From NCBI RefSeq assembly GCF_025770725.1, contig NZ_JANZKZ010000002.1, forward strand, positions 744,001-808,000: a stretch of DNA of 64,000 nucleotides. Reading direction: 5' to 3'. Numbering within the stretch: the stretch's first letter is position 1; each line of letters begins with the position of its first letter. Under the pieces are notes generated by a model. That model saw nothing but the letters and a program-made list of their open reading frames with translations, ran no database searches and was not told the DNA's origin. Both the position numbers and the translations under genes were made by a program. Shown here piece after piece: positions 2,305 to 28,922 of the stretch. This DNA is from Sulfurospirillum oryzae. Its GTDB lineage: Bacteria; Campylobacterota; Campylobacteria; Campylobacterales; Sulfurospirillaceae.

Positions 2305-4161
2305 ATGGCTTCAAAAGAACTCTACACAGCATTAGAAGAACTTTTTGCAGAAAATGAAAAATCTTATGTGACCTACGAAAACGTCATGGATCTTTTTGTT
2401 AAACCTCCAACCCCTGCAAACGTTAAAAAATTGATGACTCTTTTAGAGAAATACAAAGTCACATTGATCTCTTCTGCTGAAATTGCCAAAATGCGCAACA
2501 AAGAAGAAGCGAGAAAAAGAGAAGAAGAGCGTCAAAAACTCCAAGATGAAGCCCTAGAAGACGAGTTTGACCTTGCCAGCGAAAAAGAACTTTTAGAGTG
2601 GTCACGCAGTGATAGCCCTGTTAGAATGTACCTTCGTGAAATGGGACAAATCTCACTTTTAACCAAAGATGAAGAGATTGACATCAGTAAAAAAATTGAA
2701 TTTGGCGAAGACATCATCATTGATGCGTTTTGTTCTGTTCCTTATCTGATTGATTTTATTTTGGATTATAAAGAAGCACTCATCAACCGTGAACGTCGTG
2801 TAAAAGAGCTTTTCAAAACCTTTGAAGACGACACCGACGATGATGGGGATGAAGAAGAGTTTGACGATGAAGACGGTGAAGAAGGTGAAGAGAAAAAAAC
2901 GTTTTCCAAAAAAGACAACACAAGAACTGAAAAAGTCATCGAAAGCTTTAAGTCTTTAGAGAAAGCGAAAAAAGATTGGTTAAAAAGTCTTACCAGACCA
3001 CCTGAAGAAAATTTAGATGATGCTGAAGAGATGATGAACTACGATCTAGGACTTGCGTATAAAAAGAAACTTCTTAAAGACGCACTTATGGATTTAGGAC
3101 CTACCAGTAAGTTGATTAACGAGCTTGTAAAATCTATGGAAACCGCACTTAAAAGTGACTTTGAATTCGACAAAGAACTCAAACGTTTAGAGTACCGTTT
3201 GCCACTTTTTAACGACACACTCAGAGAAAACCATGTTAATCTTCTCAAAAGCATTGTTGATCTTAACAAAGAAGACATTACGACAATGGTTCCAGAAGCT
3301 ACGATGGTTTCAACCTATATGGAAATCAAAAAGCTTTTCCAAACCAAGGAAGCGAGTAAACAAGGTTTCGATCTTGATCCTGAAAAACTCAAAGAGGTTC
3401 TAGAACAGATCAAACGGGGTAAAAAAATTGCTGACGAGTCTAAAACCCGTATGGCAAAAAGTAACCTTCGTCTGGTTGTATCCATCGCAAAACGTTACAC
3501 CAACAGAGGCTTACCATTCTTGGATTTGATTCAAGAAGGTAACATCGGTCTTATGAAAGCGGTTGATAAATTTGAGTACAAAAAAGGCTACAAGTTTTCG
3601 ACCTACGCCACATGGTGGATTCGCCAAGCGATCTCACGTGCCATTGCCGATCAAGCACGTACCATTCGTATTCCTATCCACATGATTGAGACGATTAACC
3701 GTATCAACAAGATCATTCGTAAACACCTTCAAGAAGAAGGTAAAGAGCCTGACATCGAAACCATTGCACTAGAAGTGGGCCTGAGTGCGGACAAAGTCAA
3801 AAACGTTATTAAGATCACGAAAGAGCCTATTTCACTTGAAGCACCTATTGGTAACGAAGACGATGGTAAATTCGGCGATTTCGTTGAAGATAAAACCTCT
3901 GTTGCGCCACTCGATCACATTCTAAAATCTGACCTTAAAGATCAGATCGATGAAGTACTAGATCAGCTCAATGATCGCGAAAAAGCGGTTATTCGTATGC
4001 GTTTTGGTTTAATGCACGATGAGAGTGATAGAACACTTGAAGAGATCGGTAAAGAACTTAATGTTACGCGTGAGCGTGTTCGTCAGATCGAAAGTTCTGC
4101 GATTAAAAAACTGAAACATCCTAAAGTGGGACGTAAACTTAAAAACTACATCGAAAGTTAA
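2305..4161 (+). CDS. rpoD: Housekeeping RNA polymerase sigma factor RpoD (sigma-70)
   Basis: The 618-residue protein is the primary sigma factor that directs RNA polymerase to housekeeping promoters. An N-terminal region 1.1-like part is followed by [21 protein letters not shown] (region 1.2). There is a very acidic low-complexity insert around residues 172-200, rich in D and E. Region 2 is visible in the [18 protein letters not shown] and [16 protein letters not shown] motifs, and region 4.2 ends with [20 protein letters not shown]. The start is fixed by AAGGAGAG 8 nt upstream. A PAS-domain gene follows after 2 bp and is probably co-transcribed. Confidence 0.98.
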
Positions 4162-4163
4162 CC

Positions 4164-4850
4164 ATGAGTAGTTTTGCCGAAGCATGGATTGAACACGATT
4201 ACAATCCTTTTATTGTTTTTGATAGTACCGGTAAGATCATTTCCCTCAACCAAGAAGCGCAATACCTTCTTGGTGAGGTCAACCACAAAAAAATCTTTGA
4301 TATCGCCCAAACGTATGCAAGCATGACGTATGGTTTTAAAACAACCATCGTTGACATTTCATTTAGTTCATACAAGTTTTATGCGATTACGGTGGGCTAT
4401 ACCGATGAAACATCCATAGGTATCAAGCTTTACAAGAGCGCAACGAAAAAATTTGCCAATGTCGAAGAGTATGGTGAGAGTGTGAATATTTACGCGCTAC
4501 TTGACCTTTGCATTAGTGCATCTTCCACCAATGCAAACATCAAGTTTAAAAAAGAGTTTGACCCAACTTTCCCAGATGTTCGTCTCAAAGTTGAAGACTT
4601 TATGAAGCTCCTTACTAAAGTCTATCAGTCACATATCAACTCACCCGTCATTACCACGCGTCTAGCCCTGATTACAGGTGAATACATTCGCTTTAACAAT
4701 AAAAAATACCCTATTTTTGCCATCTCCATCAAAGGTGATAGCCGAGATAGAAACTATGAAAAAAGCATTGAAGAGATAGGTGTTAAAGGTAACTGCACCA
4801 TTCACTTTGAAAATGACGAAACCCTCATCCACGCGGCATTAGTGTCGTAA
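4164..4850 (+). CDS. PAS-domain protein with degenerate kinase-like C-terminus
   Basis: This 228-residue protein begins with a PAS-like sensor fold (about residues 8-95) containing the typical segment NPFIVFDSTGKIISLNQEA. The C-terminal half (about 100-225) resembles a histidine-kinase ATPase domain in outline: VNIYALLDLCI, DPTFPDVRLKVEDFMKLL. The N-box asparagines are replaced (LLTKVYQSH), there is no phosphoacceptor H-box and no DxGxG glycine box, so it cannot be an active kinase. It starts 2 bp after rpoD and has no membrane segment. The known facts end at PAS; a role as a partner or regulator linked to RpoD would be inference from position only. Confidence 0.7.
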   Translation: MSSFAEAWIEHDYNPFIVFDSTGKIISLNQEAQYLLGEVNHKKIFDIAQTYASMTYGFKTTIVDISFSSYKFYAITVGYTDETSIGIKLYKSATKKFANVEEYGESVNIYALLDLCISASSTNANIKFKKEFDPTFPDVRLKVEDFMKLLTKVYQSHINSPVITTRLALITGEYIRFNNKKYPIFAISIKGDSRDRNYEKSIEEIGVKGNCTIHFENDETLIHAALVS

Positions 4851-4854
4851 AAAT

Positions 4855-4889
4855 CTTTACATGTAAAGTCATTTGGCTTTACATGTAAC
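4855..4889. terminator. Bidirectional terminator made of two iterated palindromes
   Basis: Two copies of the TTTACATGTAAA family (4856-4867 and 4878-4889) are separated so that TTACATGTAAAG (4857-4868) pairs with CTTTACATGTAA (4877-4888) around the 8-nt loop TCATTTGG. The 12 bp stem lies between convergent genes (the PAS gene and the HxlR gene) and is flanked by T-rich or A-rich sequence on both sides. It would work in both directions. Confidence 0.7.
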
Positions 4890-4895
4890 TTTTAT

Positions 4896-5258
4896 TTACA
4901 AACTTAAACACGATTCTCCATCAAGCGCCTCACCTGGTTTTATATGCTCTTTTCCCCACTGATACATCAAACTTAAAATGGGTATGAGCGTTTCGCCCTC
5001 TGACGTGAGTGAGTATTCCACTTTGGGAGGTACTTGATTGTACTGTTCCCTGTGAATAATATTATTACGCTCTAACTCTTTGAGTTGTTGGCTTAATGTT
5101 TTGTGTGCAATCGGCTGTAACATCTCTTTTAAGCGATTGTAGCGAATGACTTTTGATTCCGATATTTTCCACAAAATAATCCACTTCCACTTTCCTTCCA
5201 AAATCGACATCGCATAATACATAGGGCATTTTTCGTATTTATCACTAAATTTTTCCAT
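4896..5258 (-). CDS. HxlR-family winged-helix transcriptional regulator
   Basis: A 120-residue DNA-binding protein. The signature is clear: CPMYYAMSILEGKWKWIILW, then RYNRLKEMLQPIAHKTLSQQLKELE and the wing with VPPKVEYSLTSEGETLIPIL. HxlR/YodB/QorR proteins are usually autoregulated repressors that control a divergently transcribed oxidoreductase, and the conserved N-terminal Cys (here in EKCPMY, residue 11) is redox- or electrophile-sensing in studied members. It is divergent from an iron-sulfur flavoprotein gene with a 112 bp shared promoter region containing a candidate operator. The regulator class is certain; the inducer is unknown. Confidence 0.93.
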   Translation of the reverse strand: MEKFSDKYEKCPMYYAMSILEGKWKWIILWKISESKVIRYNRLKEMLQPIAHKTLSQQLKELERNNIIHREQYNQVPPKVEYSLTSEGETLIPILSLMYQWGKEHIKPGEALDGESCLSL

Positions 5259-5370: not shown

Positions 5371-6054
5371 ATGAAAATTATAGCCATTAATGGAAGTCCG
5401 CGAAAAAATGCAAACACTGCCACTTTACTGAAAAAAGCGCTGGAGGGTGCAAAACAGCATGGAGCGAAAACAGAGCTTGTTCACCTTTATGACTTTGCGT
5501 ATCAAGGATGTATTAGTTGTTTTTCTTGTAAGCTTCCTAAAGGAAAATCGTATGGAAAGTGCGCACATAAGGATGCGCTCAAACCTCTTTTAGAAAAGCT
5601 CCACGATGCCGATGCCATTCTTTTAGGCTCACCTATTTATTTTGGCAACATTACAGGTATGATGCGCTCATTTATAGAACGTTTAGCCTTTCAATACACC
5701 GTTTATGATGTACATTACTCCTCACTTTTTCCTCGAAAAATACCCATAGGTTTTATCTATACGATGAATTTAGATGAAAAAAGGATGCAAGAATGGGGTT
5801 ATGTTGAAACACTTAAAGGTCTTGAAAAGAGACTTGGAAGTATTTTTGGTTCTTCTGAAGCACTTTATGTAACTGATACCTATCAATTTAAGGACTATTC
5901 CAAATATAAAATTACCGCTTTTAGTGAACCACTCAAAGCCAAAAGGCGCAAAGAAGTCTTCCCCATAGATTGCGAAAAAGCTTACGATATGGGAGCGCGA
6001 TTTGTTACAATAGGCGCTTTTTTAGCTTCTAACAGTGAAAGTGTACCTCATTGA
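5371..6054 (+). CDS. NADPH-dependent FMN reductase / iron-sulfur flavoprotein
   Basis: The 227-residue protein has a flavodoxin-like fold: MKIIAINGSPRKNANTATLL is the FMN phosphate loop and ADAILLGSPIYFGNITG the second flavin-contact motif. Residues C47, C50 and C53 form CxxCxxC, followed by C64. This is the compact cysteine motif that binds a [4Fe-4S] cluster in Methanosarcina Isf; the fourth cysteine is further away here (x10 rather than x5). Family members transfer electrons to or detoxify oxidised substrates. It is divergent from an HxlR regulator, which probably represses it. The exact substrate cannot be told from sequence. Confidence 0.85.
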   Translation: MKIIAINGSPRKNANTATLLKKALEGAKQHGAKTELVHLYDFAYQGCISCFSCKLPKGKSYGKCAHKDALKPLLEKLHDADAILLGSPIYFGNITGMMRSFIERLAFQYTVYDVHYSSLFPRKIPIGFIYTMNLDEKRMQEWGYVETLKGLEKRLGSIFGSSEALYVTDTYQFKDYSKYKITAFSEPLKAKRRKEVFPIDCEKAYDMGARFVTIGAFLASNSESVPH

Positions 6055-6067
6055 GTGTGACCTACTT

Positions 6068-6097
6068 TTACATGCAAGCTTATTATTTTGTATGTAA
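6068..6097 (+). terminator. Hairpin from a decayed palindrome pair
   Basis: TTACATGCAA (6068-6077) pairs with TTGTATGTAA (6088-6097) around a 10-nt loop, with one G-U pair; the downstream arm is followed by TTTT. Both arms are mutated relatives of the TTTACATGTAAA family. It lies 14 nt after the flavoprotein stop and is a likely terminator. An intact copy follows at 6116-6127. Confidence 0.5.
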
Positions 6098-6162
6098 TTT
6101 TAAATGAGATATGTCTTTACATGTAAAGATTTTCAATGCACTATTAGGATTAAAATTTAAGG

Positions 6163-6189
6163 AGCGGTTACACATTACATGTAACCGCT
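6163..6189. terminator. Terminator hairpin between flavoprotein gene and acs
   Basis: AGCGGTTACA (6163-6172) pairs perfectly with TGTAACCGCT (6180-6189) around a 7-nt loop, a GC-richer 10 bp stem. The downstream arm and loop contain a TTACATGTAA palindrome (6175-6184). It lies just past the acs stop on the minus strand and between convergent genes, so it may serve both. Confidence 0.65.
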
Positions 6190-6197
6190 TTAGAAGT

Positions 6198-8144
6198 CTA
6201 GAATTCGATAAGGTTTTGGATTTTCTCAACGATACTTGGATCTTCAAGTGTTGAGATGTCTTGAGTAATAGGCTCTTTTTTCGCGATTGAGCGAAGAATT
6301 CTTCGCATGATTTTACCACTTCTGGTTTTTGGAAGACCAGGAACGAAGCGGATCGCGTCAAGTTTAGCGATATTACCGATCTCTTTAACAATGAGCTTGT
6401 TAAGCTCTTGGATCATGTAAACCTCTTCACTAATCGTATCTTGTCCTTTGATAACAATGTACGCAAAGATGCCCTCACCTTTAATCGCATCAGGACGTCC
6501 AACAACGGCAACCTCTGCAACGTTTTCATGATGCGCAAGAACAGCTTCGATCTCCGCTGTACCGATTCTATGTCCCGAAACGTTGATAACGTCATCTGTT
6601 CGTCCTGTAATGACGATATAGCCATCGTCATCGTACATTGCGCCATCGCCTGAGAAGTAAACAGGTTTACCGTCTTTTTTACAATCACCAAAATACGATT
6701 TTACAAAACGATCACTATCGCCCCAGATATTACGAATCATTGAAGGCCAAGGCTTAGTGATACACAAGAACCCTTTTTCACCTTTGGGTGTTGGATTACC
6801 ATGCTCATCAATAATCTCAGCTTTAATGCCTGGAAGTGGGAATGTAGCAGAACCCGGTTTAATCGGCGTAGCTCCTGGAAGTGGAGAGATCATGTGACCG
6901 CCTGTTTCTGTTTGCCACCATGTATCCACAATCGGACAGTTTCCACCACCGATTTGCTCATAGTACCACATCCACGCATCAGGATTGATCGGCTCGCCAA
7001 CGGTTCCAAGTACTTTTAGAGAACTTAGATCGTATTTTGAAGGAGCATCAGCACCCTCTTTGTGAAGTAAACGAATCGCTGTTGGAGCGGTATAGAACTG
7101 ATTGACACGGTGCTCTTCAATCATGTGCCACCATCTGCCTACATCTGGGAACGTTGGAACGCCCTCATACATAATGGTTGTTGCACCCATCGCAAGTGGT
7201 CCATAGACGATGTACGTATGTCCCGTAATCCAACCAACGTCTGCTGTACACCAGAAGGTGTCGTTCTCTTTAACATCAAAAACGTGCTCCATTGTGTACT
7301 GCGCCCAAAGAATGTAGCCAGCACTTCCGTGTTGAACACCTTTTGGCTTACCAGTACTTCCTGAAGTGTAAAGTAGGAACAATGGATCTTCTGAGTCCAT
7401 CCATTCAGGATCGCAGTACTGAGACTCGTTCATTATGATCTCGTTGTAAACATAGTCACGTCCTGGAACGTAGTCAATGTCTTCAAAGTTTCTTTGAACG
7501 ATAAGCACTTTCTCACAACATTCACAGCCAACACTAAGCGCCTCATCAACAACGGGTTTTAACATGTATGGTTTACCGCGTCTAAATGCACCATCGGCTG
7601 TAATAACCAATTTTGCTTCTGCATCTTGGATACGATCACGTAAAGCTTCAGCAGAGAATCCACCAAAAACAACGGAGTGAATCGCACCAATTTTTGCACA
7701 GGCAAGCATTGCAAAAGCAGCTTCTGGAATCATTGGCATATAAAGAACAACACGGTCACCTTTTTTGATGCCAAATTTATTGCGCATCAAGTTTGCTAAA
7801 CGGTTAACGCGGTAAAAAAGTTGAAGATACGTAATGATACGACGTTTGCCATCTTCGCCTTCCCAGATAATCGCCGCTTTATTTTTACGGGTTTTTAGAT
7901 GTCTTCCTAAACACTGATGCGTAACGTTTAATTTGCCACCTTCGAACCATTTGTAGAACGGAGCGTTATCTTCATTTAACACTCTGTCATAAGGCTTAAA
8001 CCACTCAATTTTCTCACGTGCTAGCTTATCCCAATAGCCTTCAAAATCCTCATCCGCTTGGATACAAAGCTCCTTGTACTCACACATGTTCTTAATTCTG
8101 GCTTCTTTGCTTAAAGCTCTACTTGGTTCAAAAAGTTGTGACAT
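6198..8144 (-). CDS. acs: Acetyl-CoA synthetase (AMP-forming)
   Basis: The 648-residue enzyme activates acetate to acetyl-CoA through acetyl-AMP. Family motifs are all present: [19 protein letters not shown] (AMP-binding P-loop), [38 protein letters not shown] and the C-terminal [15 protein letters not shown], whose lysine is the usual acetylation-control site. Length is typical (about 650). It follows actP in the same direction but after a 147 bp gap holding an actP terminator and repeat hairpins, so it may have its own promoter. It works with the ActP symporter and probably with the upstream two-component system in acetate uptake and use. Confidence 0.98.
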
Positions 8145-17134: not shown

Positions 17135-17212
17135 AGATTGTAAGTTAAAACGGATTAAAAGCTTATTAATGTAGAATAAGTTATTCAAAACAACTCATAC
17201 TAGGTGGATTTT

Positions 17213-18085
17213 ATGAAAGCCGGACTCATCCAACACGCCGTTGAAAGTACCAAAGAAAAAACCATAGCCAAAACCGTTTCACTCATCCAAAAAGCTGCCA
17301 TAGAGGGTGCAGAACTTGTCGTACTCCAAGAGCTTCATCAAGACCGCTATTTTTGCATCAACGAAGATGTAAGCTGTTTTGACCTCGCAAATTCGTGGGA
17401 AGATGACATCGCTTTTTGGTCAGATGTTGCTAAAGAGAATAGCGTCGTTTTAGTCACATCTTTATTTGAAAAACGCTCTGCTGGACTTTACCACAACACC
17501 GCTGTCGTCTTTGAAAAAGATGGTACGGTCGCTGGTAAATACCGCAAAATGCACATCCCCGATGATCCAGGATTTTACGAAAAATTCTACTTCACCCCTG
17601 GTGATCTTGGCTATGAACCCATCCAAACCAGTGTGGGGAAACTAGGACTTCTCGTCTGTTGGGATCAATGGTACCCAGAAGCAGCTCGTTTGATGGCGCT
17701 AAAAGGTGCTGAAATGCTCATCTACCCCACAGCCATCGGTTGGTTCGATGAAGACATGGAAGATGAACAAAGAAGACAATGCGACGCATGGGAGACCATA
17801 CAACGCGGTCACGCCATCAGTAATGGTGTACCCGTTATCAGCGTAAACCGCATCGGCAAAGAAGAAGACAATCACGGTGTGCTTGACGGCATCCGCTTCT
17901 GGGGCAACTCTTTTGTAGCAGGCCCACAAGGCGAGATCATTGTACGAGCTAGCCACGACCAAGAAGAAGTGCTCATCGTCGACATAGACCTAGCGCGAGG
18001 CGAACACGTCAGACGCATCTGGCCATTTTTGCGTGACCGCAGAATCGAGACTTATGGGGATTTGACGAAACGATTTATCGACTAA
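17213..18085 (+). CDS. aguB: N-carbamoylputrescine amidase
   Basis: A 290-residue nitrilase-superfamily enzyme that hydrolyses N-carbamoylputrescine to putrescine, CO2 and ammonia. The catalytic triad is visible: E in VVLQELHQDRYF, K in GKYRKMHIPDD and C in LLVCWDQWYPEAARLMAL. The motif CWDQWYPE is typical of AguB. Start is the ATG at 17213, 5 nt after AGGTGG; the GTG at 17204 overlaps that ribosome site. With aguA (12.6 kb) it completes agmatine to putrescine conversion. The two genes are separated by feoAB and the CDF gene. Confidence 0.93.
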   Translation: MKAGLIQHAVESTKEKTIAKTVSLIQKAAIEGAELVVLQELHQDRYFCINEDVSCFDLANSWEDDIAFWSDVAKENSVVLVTSLFEKRSAGLYHNTAVVFEKDGTVAGKYRKMHIPDDPGFYEKFYFTPGDLGYEPIQTSVGKLGLLVCWDQWYPEAARLMALKGAEMLIYPTAIGWFDEDMEDEQRRQCDAWETIQRGHAISNGVPVISVNRIGKEEDNHGVLDGIRFWGNSFVAGPQGEIIVRASHDQEEVLIVDIDLARGEHVRRIWPFLRDRRIETYGDLTKRFID

Positions 18086-18091
18086 AACCTT

Positions 18092-18125
18092 TTTACATGT
18101 AAAGACTCCAAGCTTTACATGTCAA
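18092..18125 (+). terminator. Palindrome-pair hairpin after aguB
   Basis: ACATGTAAAG (18095-18104) pairs with CTTTACATGT (18113-18122) around the 8-nt loop ACTCCAAG. The first arm is an exact TTTACATGTAAA (18092-18103); the second is a one-base variant. The design matches the hairpin at 4855-4889: two palindromes with an 8-nt loop. It separates aguB from the downstream ATPase-HNH pair. Confidence 0.6.
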
Positions 18126-18139
18126 CCTTTGGAGTGAGC

Positions 18140-26894: not shown

Positions 26895-27698
26895 TTGTTA
26901 AGCGCTAAAAATTGTGTCGAATTTTTCAAAAAGCTCAGAGACGTAGAACTTGCACACTACGCCTCTTCTTTGAGTTTTCACACCATTTTAGCGCTTATTC
27001 CGATTCTGCTTATAACCTTTAGTATTTTTACCAAAATGCCTCTTTTTGAAGTTTACTACGAGAAACTTCAAGCTTTTATTTTTAGCTCACTCATTCCGAC
27101 ACAACAAGATGTGATGATCCACTACCTGCGTGATTTTATGGAAAATACGGGTAATATGGGCGTTGTAGGTACTATTTTTGTCCTTTACATTTCTATTATG
27201 TTTTTTTTGGATTATGAAAAAATTGTGAGTAAAATTTTTGAAATTCCAACGCGCAGTTTTTGGGAAGCACTCACCACCTACTGGACAATGGTGACGCTTA
27301 TGCCTCTTGGTCTTATCATCTTCTTTTACAGCTCTGCGGTAGCGCAACAAGTGTTAGAAAGCAGCGAAGTGACGAGCTCTATCAACCTCCTTCGCTATAC
27401 GCCTTATTTTATCGTATGGGGACTCTATTTTATTATGTACAGTGTCTCCGCTAAAATCAAAATCCACCTCAAGAGTGCCCTACTTTCTTCATTTACCGCC
27501 TCTTTGTGCTGGTATATTTCTAAAATTCTTTTCGTCTATTATGTCACCTACAACAAAACGTATTTGAGCATTTATGGCTCTTTTAGCATTTTGCTTTTCT
27601 TCTTTTTATGGATCTATTTTTCATGGTTTATCTATCTTTACGGTCTAAAATTTTGCTTTTTATTGAATGAAAAAGAGACTGAGAAAAGCAAAGCCTAA
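26895..27698 (+). CDS. YihY/BrkB-family inner membrane protein
   Basis: The 267-residue protein has about six membrane spans and the YihY pattern: ELAHYASSLSFHTILALIPILL near the N-terminus, SIMFFLDYEKI, and the C-terminal FFFLWIYFSWFIYLYGLKFC. This family was once called ribonuclease BN and has no settled function; some members are virulence-linked. The start is a TTG directly after the glcD stop, with no spacing. The 3' end overlaps convergent comEC by 39 bp. Confidence 0.82.
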   Translation: MLSAKNCVEFFKKLRDVELAHYASSLSFHTILALIPILLITFSIFTKMPLFEVYYEKLQAFIFSSLIPTQQDVMIHYLRDFMENTGNMGVVGTIFVLYISIMFFLDYEKIVSKIFEIPTRSFWEALTTYWTMVTLMPLGLIIFFYSSAVAQQVLESSEVTSSINLLRYTPYFIVWGLYFIMYSVSAKIKIHLKSALLSSFTASLCWYISKILFVYYVTYNKTYLSIYGSFSILLFFFLWIYFSWFIYLYGLKFCFLLNEKETEKSKA

Positions 27699-28922
27699 AC
27701 AGCCATACAATGCCACTTTGTAGCGTATTGCCACAAGTGAAACTCCTACATATAAAACCAATATCCACCACGGAAAACTCAACAGATAACTTCCCGTTTT
27801 TACATGTAAAAAGTCTAGCAAATACGCATCTAAAATTCCTCCAAGATTCATTACATGTAAAAGTACACCTAACGGATAAAAGACGATAAACACAAGGCTT
27901 GAGAGTGGCGATGTCAGTTGCAAAAAGGTAAAGACAGGGAAAAAGGTATGAACGATGGGAACCATTAGGAGAAAAACGCCAAGATCAATGATGCCAAGCA
28001 ATACCCAGCGATTGAGACTTTGAAAATGGTGTAAAAAAAGAAAAAGGTAAAAAACACCCGCTACTGAAAACCAAAAAGAGAGCGAAAAAAGAAGCGCTGG
28101 GAAGAGTGCTAAAAGTCCAAGTGATGTAAGACCAAGCATCTGAAATGAAAGCACTTTTATGCCTCTTGAATAAAAGAAAAAACCTAAAACACTCATCGCA
28201 AATGCCCTTAAAAAGGAGGGAACAAAGTCGATGATGACCATGTAGGCAAATAACACAACAAGCACCACCACTGTAAGATCTGCGTTGACATTACGGTAGG
28301 GAAAATAACGACTTTGAAAAAACTGATAAAGTGGTTTGAGAAAAAAGAAAAGCAAAAATGAGATAACCCCGACATTGTAACCGCTAATGGCGATCAGATG
28401 TGAAATACCCCATTTTTGAACCTCCTCACGTAACTCTTTTGAAATAGGTGTCGCAAATAGGAGCGTTTTATACAACTCTGCTATCGTTTCATTTTCATGT
28501 TGATGCTCAACCCAACGATAAAGCGGTTTTACATCAAGCGGTGGGTCATCTTCGTAGATTTCATACAACGACAATGAAGGGGCAAAAAAGCCTTTGAGAT
28601 AGTCTAAAAAGGTGACTTTATCGACTTTGAGTTTCACCTTTACACGGCTTTTGAGAGGTGTGGATGTAACGCGCCATGATGTGGTGTAGACTTCCGCACC
28701 ACTGCCATCGAGTTTGAGCTTGAAAACATCGTAGGTGCGCCCTTTTTCATTGGTTTTTGTGTAGTGATTGAGCACCGTGGCAGTGTTTACATGTAAAGCA
28801 TTTTGAGTTAGTTTTTGGAAGTGGTAAAATTCAAAAAAAAGGGAACACGAAGCAACAAAAAGCACCACTGCTAGTGTCAGAAAAAATTCCTTTTTGCTGA
28901 CAAAGAGTGGTACGTTTTGCAT
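27660..28922 (-). CDS. comEC: ComEC/Rec2-family DNA uptake channel
   Basis: A 420-residue polytopic protein. WGISHLIAISGYNVGVISFLL is the diagnostic competence domain motif, and FVPSFLRAFAMSVLGFFFYSRG the second. The N-terminal part is an OB-like periplasmic domain (about 35-120). It lacks the C-terminal metallo-beta-lactamase domain of long ComEC proteins, as usual for this phylum. ComEC passes single-stranded DNA across the inner membrane during natural transformation. Three TACATGTA palindromes lie inside it (27799, 27851, 28786). It starts 2 bp after dnaB. Confidence 0.88.
   Translation of the reverse strand: MQNVPLFVSKKEFFLTLAVVLFVASCSLFFEFYHFQKLTQNALHVNTATVLNHYTKTNEKGRTYDVFKLKLDGSGAEVYTTSWRVTSTPLKSRVKVKLKVDKVTFLDYLKGFFAPSLSLYEIYEDDPPLDVKPLYRWVEHQHENETIAELYKTLLFATPISKELREEVQKWGISHLIAISGYNVGVISFLLFFFLKPLYQFFQSRYFPYRNVNADLTVVVLVVLFAYMVIIDFVPSFLRAFAMSVLGFFFYSRGIKVLSFQMLGLTSLGLLALFPALLFSLSFWFSVAGVFYLFLFLHHFQSLNRWVLLGIIDLGVFLLMVPIVHTFFPVFTFLQLTSPLSSLVFIVFYPLGVLLHVMNLGGILDAYLLDFLHVKTGSYLLSFPWWILVLYVGVSLVAIRYKVALYGCLGFAFLSLFFIQ

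Follow-up and report, generated by a model that had tools for sequence, protein, structure and literature searches.

Can two neighbouring copies of a repeated palindrome, standing just past the stop codons of convergent genes, act as a transcription terminator? The question is raised by a site at 4855-4889 in a 64,000-nucleotide stretch of Sulfurospirillum oryzae DNA (the window), for which a preliminary description had proposed that two copies form one stem-loop after a gene, in the manner of the paired uptake sequences of Haemophilus and Neisseria. Positions 4857-4866 and 4879-4888 are both exact copies of TTACATGTAA, separated by a gap of 12 nt, or of 8 nt if the distance is taken between the longer forms CTTTACATGTAAAG. 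The paired-palindrome hairpin thus defined (4857-4888, no strand assigned) lies 6 and 7 nt past the stops of two convergent genes, namely a 228-aa gene without Pfam match (4164-4850, plus strand), which follows an rpoD-like gene at 2305-4161, and a gene for an HxlR-type regulator (4896-5258, minus strand) that shares the hairpin. RNA folding yielded -17.2 kcal/mol (z -6.6) and a 14-bp stem on the plus strand and -16.5 kcal/mol (z -5.8) and a 12-bp stem on the minus strand, and the hairpin is terminator-like, with a U-tract, on both. The 8-nt loop originally described forms on the minus strand only; on the plus strand, G.U and C-G pairs leave a loop of 4 nt.

Of the 23 genus members for which this gene end was available, S. 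oryzae included, 14 carry an exact pair there. The loops of these orthologous pairs differ, as in AGTCATTTGGCT, AGTTTAAAATCT, CATCTCTTTGATG, and AGCATTGTATCT, and the neighbouring gene is sometimes a different one. Exact copies, a strong fold on both strands, and conservation in orthologs bear out the two-copy stem-loop at this site, and all sites named in the preliminary description were found where it had placed them.

TTACATGTAA is a 10-letter perfect palindrome, so its forward and reverse counts are equal. A genome-wide pattern count found 1,056 copies in the 2.63-Mb genome and 3 copies of the reversed control; most copies are part of the longer form CTTTACATGTAAAG. Under a second-order model of 820 kb of sequence, TTACATGTAA was the top over-represented word, with 374 copies where 1.9 were expected. 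Copy number ranges from 49 to 1,496 across the genus and from 6 to 1,496 across the family. Within the order (200 genomes), paired TTACATGTAA is confined to this family and one genus of another family; outside the family, we counted 10 pairs in G139 and 1 pair in G191, and the other sampled families have none. In the literature searched, which left most subscription journals aside, we found neither TTACATGTAA mentioned for Sulfurospirillum nor uptake sequences for any of the Campylobacterota.

Related motifs were also considered. A TATCATGATAG-type motif was dropped as a genus-wide dialect (g2), since it is strong in one genome only: G030, which belongs to a sister genus, has an over-represented CATG-centred motif of this type (stretches L252-L271), with 194 copies of ATCATGATAG, and no other family member exceeds 38. 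This motif forms no close pairs, and just one gap is shorter than 70 nt (50 nt). In the 820 kb from S. oryzae itself, CATG outside the motif is under-represented (2,888 occurrences versus 4,093 expected) and GATC is low too; the CATG deficit might reflect restriction-site avoidance.

Because the unit is palindromic, any two copies of TTACATGTAA constitute an inverted pair. Pairing alone is therefore less informative here than for DUS or USS, and it is spacing, place, and structure that have to carry the argument. We analyzed all 35 pairs of the S. oryzae genome with gaps of up to 30 nt, using gaps of 31-61 nt as the control class. Gaps of 9-13 nt were strikingly frequent, with 18 pairs seen versus 2.1 expected (8.5-fold, P = 1.6e-11), and a smaller second bump appeared at 21-30 nt (11 versus 4.2 expected, P = 0.004), whereas the control class contained 15 pairs versus 13.1 expected. 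The excess of short spacings that the preliminary description had called for is thus present as a sharp peak. The pairs with 21-30-nt gaps are partly intragenic, and their spacing recalls the 19-22-nt peak of USS pairs. Close pairs could also arise by chance, without selection for pairing, if copies simply crowd into short intergenic regions, and the non-coding part, though just 8% of the sequence, does hold 39% of the sampled copies. Crowding should, however, raise all short gaps, and this is not what we see: gaps of 14-20 nt were represented by 1 pair versus 3.0 expected and gaps of 0-8 nt by 5 versus 3.8. We regard this explanation as almost certainly wrong.

The same spacing recurs in the relatives, for most of which match counts were used instead of site lists. 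Across 24 genus members, which share ancestry so that their pairs are not independent, gaps of 9-13 nt occurred 463 times versus 47 expected (9.8-fold) and gaps of 31-61 nt 364 times versus 292 expected (1.25-fold). Low-copy species show a larger relative excess at 9-13 nt, 69-fold in G020 and 159-fold in G011, figures resting on 7 and 8 pairs, respectively.

Close pairs are also distinguished by their place. With genes called by a dicodon model on 820 kb, a stop codon precedes 16 of the 18 pairs with 9-13-nt gaps by at most 40 nt (median 6 nt), and most of these pairs separate two convergent genes. Of the wider pairs, 6 of 25 are placed this close to a stop (P = 3.5e-5), as are 56 of 279 single copies (20%; P = 3.6e-9). 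In G013, G015, G008, and G019, 65 of 79 pairs fall within 40 nt after a stop, again with a median of 6 nt; 41 of the 79 are located between convergent and 26 between co-directional genes, 11 are in coding sequence, and 1 is between divergent genes. In 6 of these 79 pairs, the stop codon of the gene is the TAA of the first copy. Scaled to the genome, about 6% of convergent gene ends use a pair, an estimate drawn from an 820-kb sample that was chosen around close pairs.

The structures formed by the pairs point in the same direction. At convergent ends, paired hairpins average -17.3 kcal/mol and 14.8 bp, compared to -13.3 kcal/mol and 10.7 bp for other gene-end hairpins. Wide pairs less often have a stem that continues past the palindrome than close pairs (P = 0.004); such extension runs outward, through 5-8 complementary bases, where the gap is 3-6 nt and mostly inward where the gap is 9-13 nt. 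Less favorable is the AU-rich composition of the paired stems (27% GC), and the tails are less telling. Pairs are followed by 3.3 T per 8 nt, similar to the 3.4 of the genome's other gene-end hairpins and to be compared with a background of 2.8, and among 26 co-directional pairs, we detected no strand bias of a downstream T-tail over an upstream A-run (P = 0.85). Unpaired TTACATGTAA copies likewise have T-rich flanks. We therefore rejected the T-tail as proof of termination, since single copies carry the same AT flanks. The gap, which is the sole strand-asymmetric part of a pair, tends to be U-rich in the RNA of co-directional pairs (Wilcoxon test, P = 0.006, or 0.03 when each distinct gap is counted once), which hints weakly at selection acting on the RNA.

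Three further hairpins in the window show how the palindrome and the stem behave when the sequence changes. At 18093-18124 (plus strand, gap 12), a paired hairpin follows a gene for a carbon-nitrogen hydrolase (17204-18085, plus strand) that ends 7 nt before it. This pair had been described as intact at 18092-18125, which does not hold for S. oryzae: the second copy, TTACATGTCA, has one substitution, and the hairpin folds weakly (-10.7 kcal/mol, z -1.5) and is without a T-tail. In 14 of the 21 relatives for which this gene end was available, an intact pair does exist. A possible Shine-Dalgarno sequestration at 18100-18135 (ACTCCAAG/CTTTGGAGT) was dismissed as chance, as it is unconserved in relatives.

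The pair at 6068-6097 (plus strand, gap 10) lies 13 nt past the stop of an NADPH-dependent FMN reductase-like gene (5371-6054, plus strand). Its arms have diverged from TTACATGTAA/TTACATGTAA to TTACATGCAA/TTGTATGTAA, and nine other species of the genus retain an intact pair at the orthologous gene end. To call it decayed is correct for the arms but not for the hairpin: a U-A pair has become C-G, with both sides changed, and a G-C pair has become G.U, so that an 11-bp stem survives (-9.7 kcal/mol, z -3.1). In the same intergenic region, a single TTACATGTAA copy within CTTTACATGTAAAG occupies 6117-6126 (no strand assigned), and a separate hairpin at 6163-6189 (minus strand, z -5.5) marks the end of the acetyl-CoA synthetase gene acs (6198-8144, minus strand). 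As noted from the outset, this last hairpin includes one palindrome copy in its stem-loop (6175-6184); the relative G010 (L152) retains the stem without the copy. Furthermore, in G009, a species with just 49 copies left, the two orthologous gene ends tested bear hairpins of unrelated sequence. One of these is a textbook terminator ending in TTTTT, and our search for a replacement motif in this low-copy species found none. Judged from these sequences, the hairpin is the constant and the palindrome its usual building material.

Dispersal of a small mobile hairpin element of the REP or MITE kind could likewise place similar structures at many gene ends. A 30-mer hairpin, TTACATGTAAGGAAAAATCCTTACATGTAA, is indeed found in either orientation at several unrelated gene ends (L101, L105, L106, L123, L126, and others) and in other species too, as copies of such an element would be. 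Outside the stem, though, these loci share no flanking sequence, the gap is particular to each pair in most cases, and for every paired copy there are about 20 single ones. Moreover, at the orthologs of the 4857 and 18093 sites, the loops evolve by point changes in place, with the stem retained. Together, these observations make a mobile origin of the pairs very improbable.

We consider it probable that paired TTACATGTAA after a stop codon is a 12-18-bp RNA hairpin that marks the 3' end of the transcript, and that the repeats have been co-opted to build it. According to this model, a palindrome repeated throughout the Sulfurospirillum genome would form such a hairpin wherever two copies stand past a stop at a distance of 9-13 nt, or of 3-6 nt with complementary outer flanks. 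Because both the copies and the stem are symmetric, one element could serve both genes of a convergent pair. The hairpin would act as an intrinsic terminator, as a block to 3' exonucleases, or as both, and the repeats themselves would be present for another reason, most likely DNA uptake. It is likely that the paired hairpins terminate transcription; protection of 3' ends from exonucleases would fit equally well. What has become of the proposal of paired terminators is mixed: stem-loops at gene ends are firmly backed by spacing, position, conservation, compensation, and hairpin replacement, but the T-tails are only average and strand-unspecific.

Around 596 isolated TTACATGTAA copies, AT content rises and falls with a period of 11.25 nt for about four helical turns to either side, a signal reached by none of 300 controls, with peaks at +5-8, +16-20, +28-31, and +37-41. 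The phased flanks accompany coding as well as non-coding copies, for example those at 28787, 36296, and 47524 of the window. This pattern, which extends to both sides of coding and non-coding single copies, would suit a DNA-wrapping or DNA-bending protein such as gyrase or a nucleoid protein, for which close pairs would be tandem sites two helical turns apart and the hairpins a by-product; the convergent location would then reflect local supercoiling. The centre-to-centre spacing of close pairs, 19-23 bp, corresponds to about two turns. Between convergent genes, single copies show a 19-fold enrichment, compared to 4-5-fold in co-directional spacers (820 kb), and strong gyrase sites and BIMEs occur at similar places. 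A wrapping protein predicts, however, neither the complementary inner and outer flanks nor the compensatory change at 6068-6097, and neither the median distance of 6 nt past stops nor the unrelated hairpins of G009. As an account of the close pairs we find it unlikely; for the repeat in general, a wrapping protein such as gyrase is the foremost competing explanation.

How, then, does TTACATGTAA compare with known repeats? REP/BIME elements of enterobacteria are also palindromic repeats; they occur at 3' ends and frequently separate convergent genes. Unlike these, TTACATGTAA has a 10-bp core as its unit, is frequent within genes, and is without a conserved element of 30-40 nt. With cyanobacterial HIP1 (GCGATCGC), it shares a short palindrome, hundreds of copies per Mb, and a copy number that varies between related genomes (PMC4390886); that study mentions neither terminators nor intergenic placement, whereas TTACATGTAA is 4-19-fold enriched at non-coding gene ends. 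Pairs of the Neisseria DUS (GCCGTCTGAA) resemble TTACATGTAA pairs in being enriched between convergent genes and in having long stems and modest T-tails (PMC1852404). The DUS is non-palindromic, though, its pair tails follow gene direction while those of TTACATGTAA do not, and close pairs take up about a quarter of all DUS copies (231 pairs/1,892 copies) as opposed to about 3-5% of TTACATGTAA copies.

A further parallel is offered by the USS (AAGTGCGGT) of Haemophilus influenzae and the Pasteurellaceae, which TTACATGTAA matches in its about 1,000-1,500 copies per genome, in close gene-end pairs, and in AT-rich tracts that extend the motif at intervals of about one helical turn. The USS has an asymmetric core, with its two AT-rich tracts on one side (PMC1852404), whereas TTACATGTAA is palindromic and flanked by tracts to either side for about four turns; its host belongs to a different phylum, the Campylobacterota. 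The spacings of USS pairs have maxima near 8 and 19-22 nt, ascribed in that study to preservation of the extended motif (PMC1852404), and those of TTACATGTAA pairs at 9-13 nt, with the smaller bump at 21-30 nt. By analogy, the two TTACATGTAA peaks may share this cause.

An analogy with uptake sequences is plausible and gains from copy number, from gene-end pairing of the kind described by Kingsford (2007), and from the phased AT flanks. In such a system, the uptake receptor would read a dyad-symmetric, bendable site. A ComEC-type protein is encoded in 41 of 44 family genomes, including the window (27660-28922), and in low-copy species too. Since almost every family member has ComEC, at high copy numbers and at low, this protein does not discriminate, and we discarded the idea that copies became few because competence was lost. 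The ComEC-type gene of the window itself contains three palindrome copies (27800, 27851, and 28787). Overall, we advance with caution, rating its chances at slightly below even, the view that TTACATGTAA and its AT tracts form a palindromic, two-sided uptake signal in Sulfurospirillum and some relatives, beyond the Pasteurellaceae and Neisseriaceae, whose pairs would have been co-opted as bidirectional gene-end hairpins.

To our knowledge, pairs of uptake signals acting as terminators have been described from two unrelated groups only. The pairing of repeats at gene ends is of a kind already known; what is new here with respect to Haemophilus and Neisseria is that the repeat is palindromic and belongs to a different phylum. 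An independent case in the Campylobacterota, with a palindromic unit, would show repeated convergence of iterated signals and gene-end hairpins. It would also make an uptake signal likely for Sulfurospirillum, a genus used for the respiration of organohalides and metals, and if this is true, a working transformation signal there would be of practical use.
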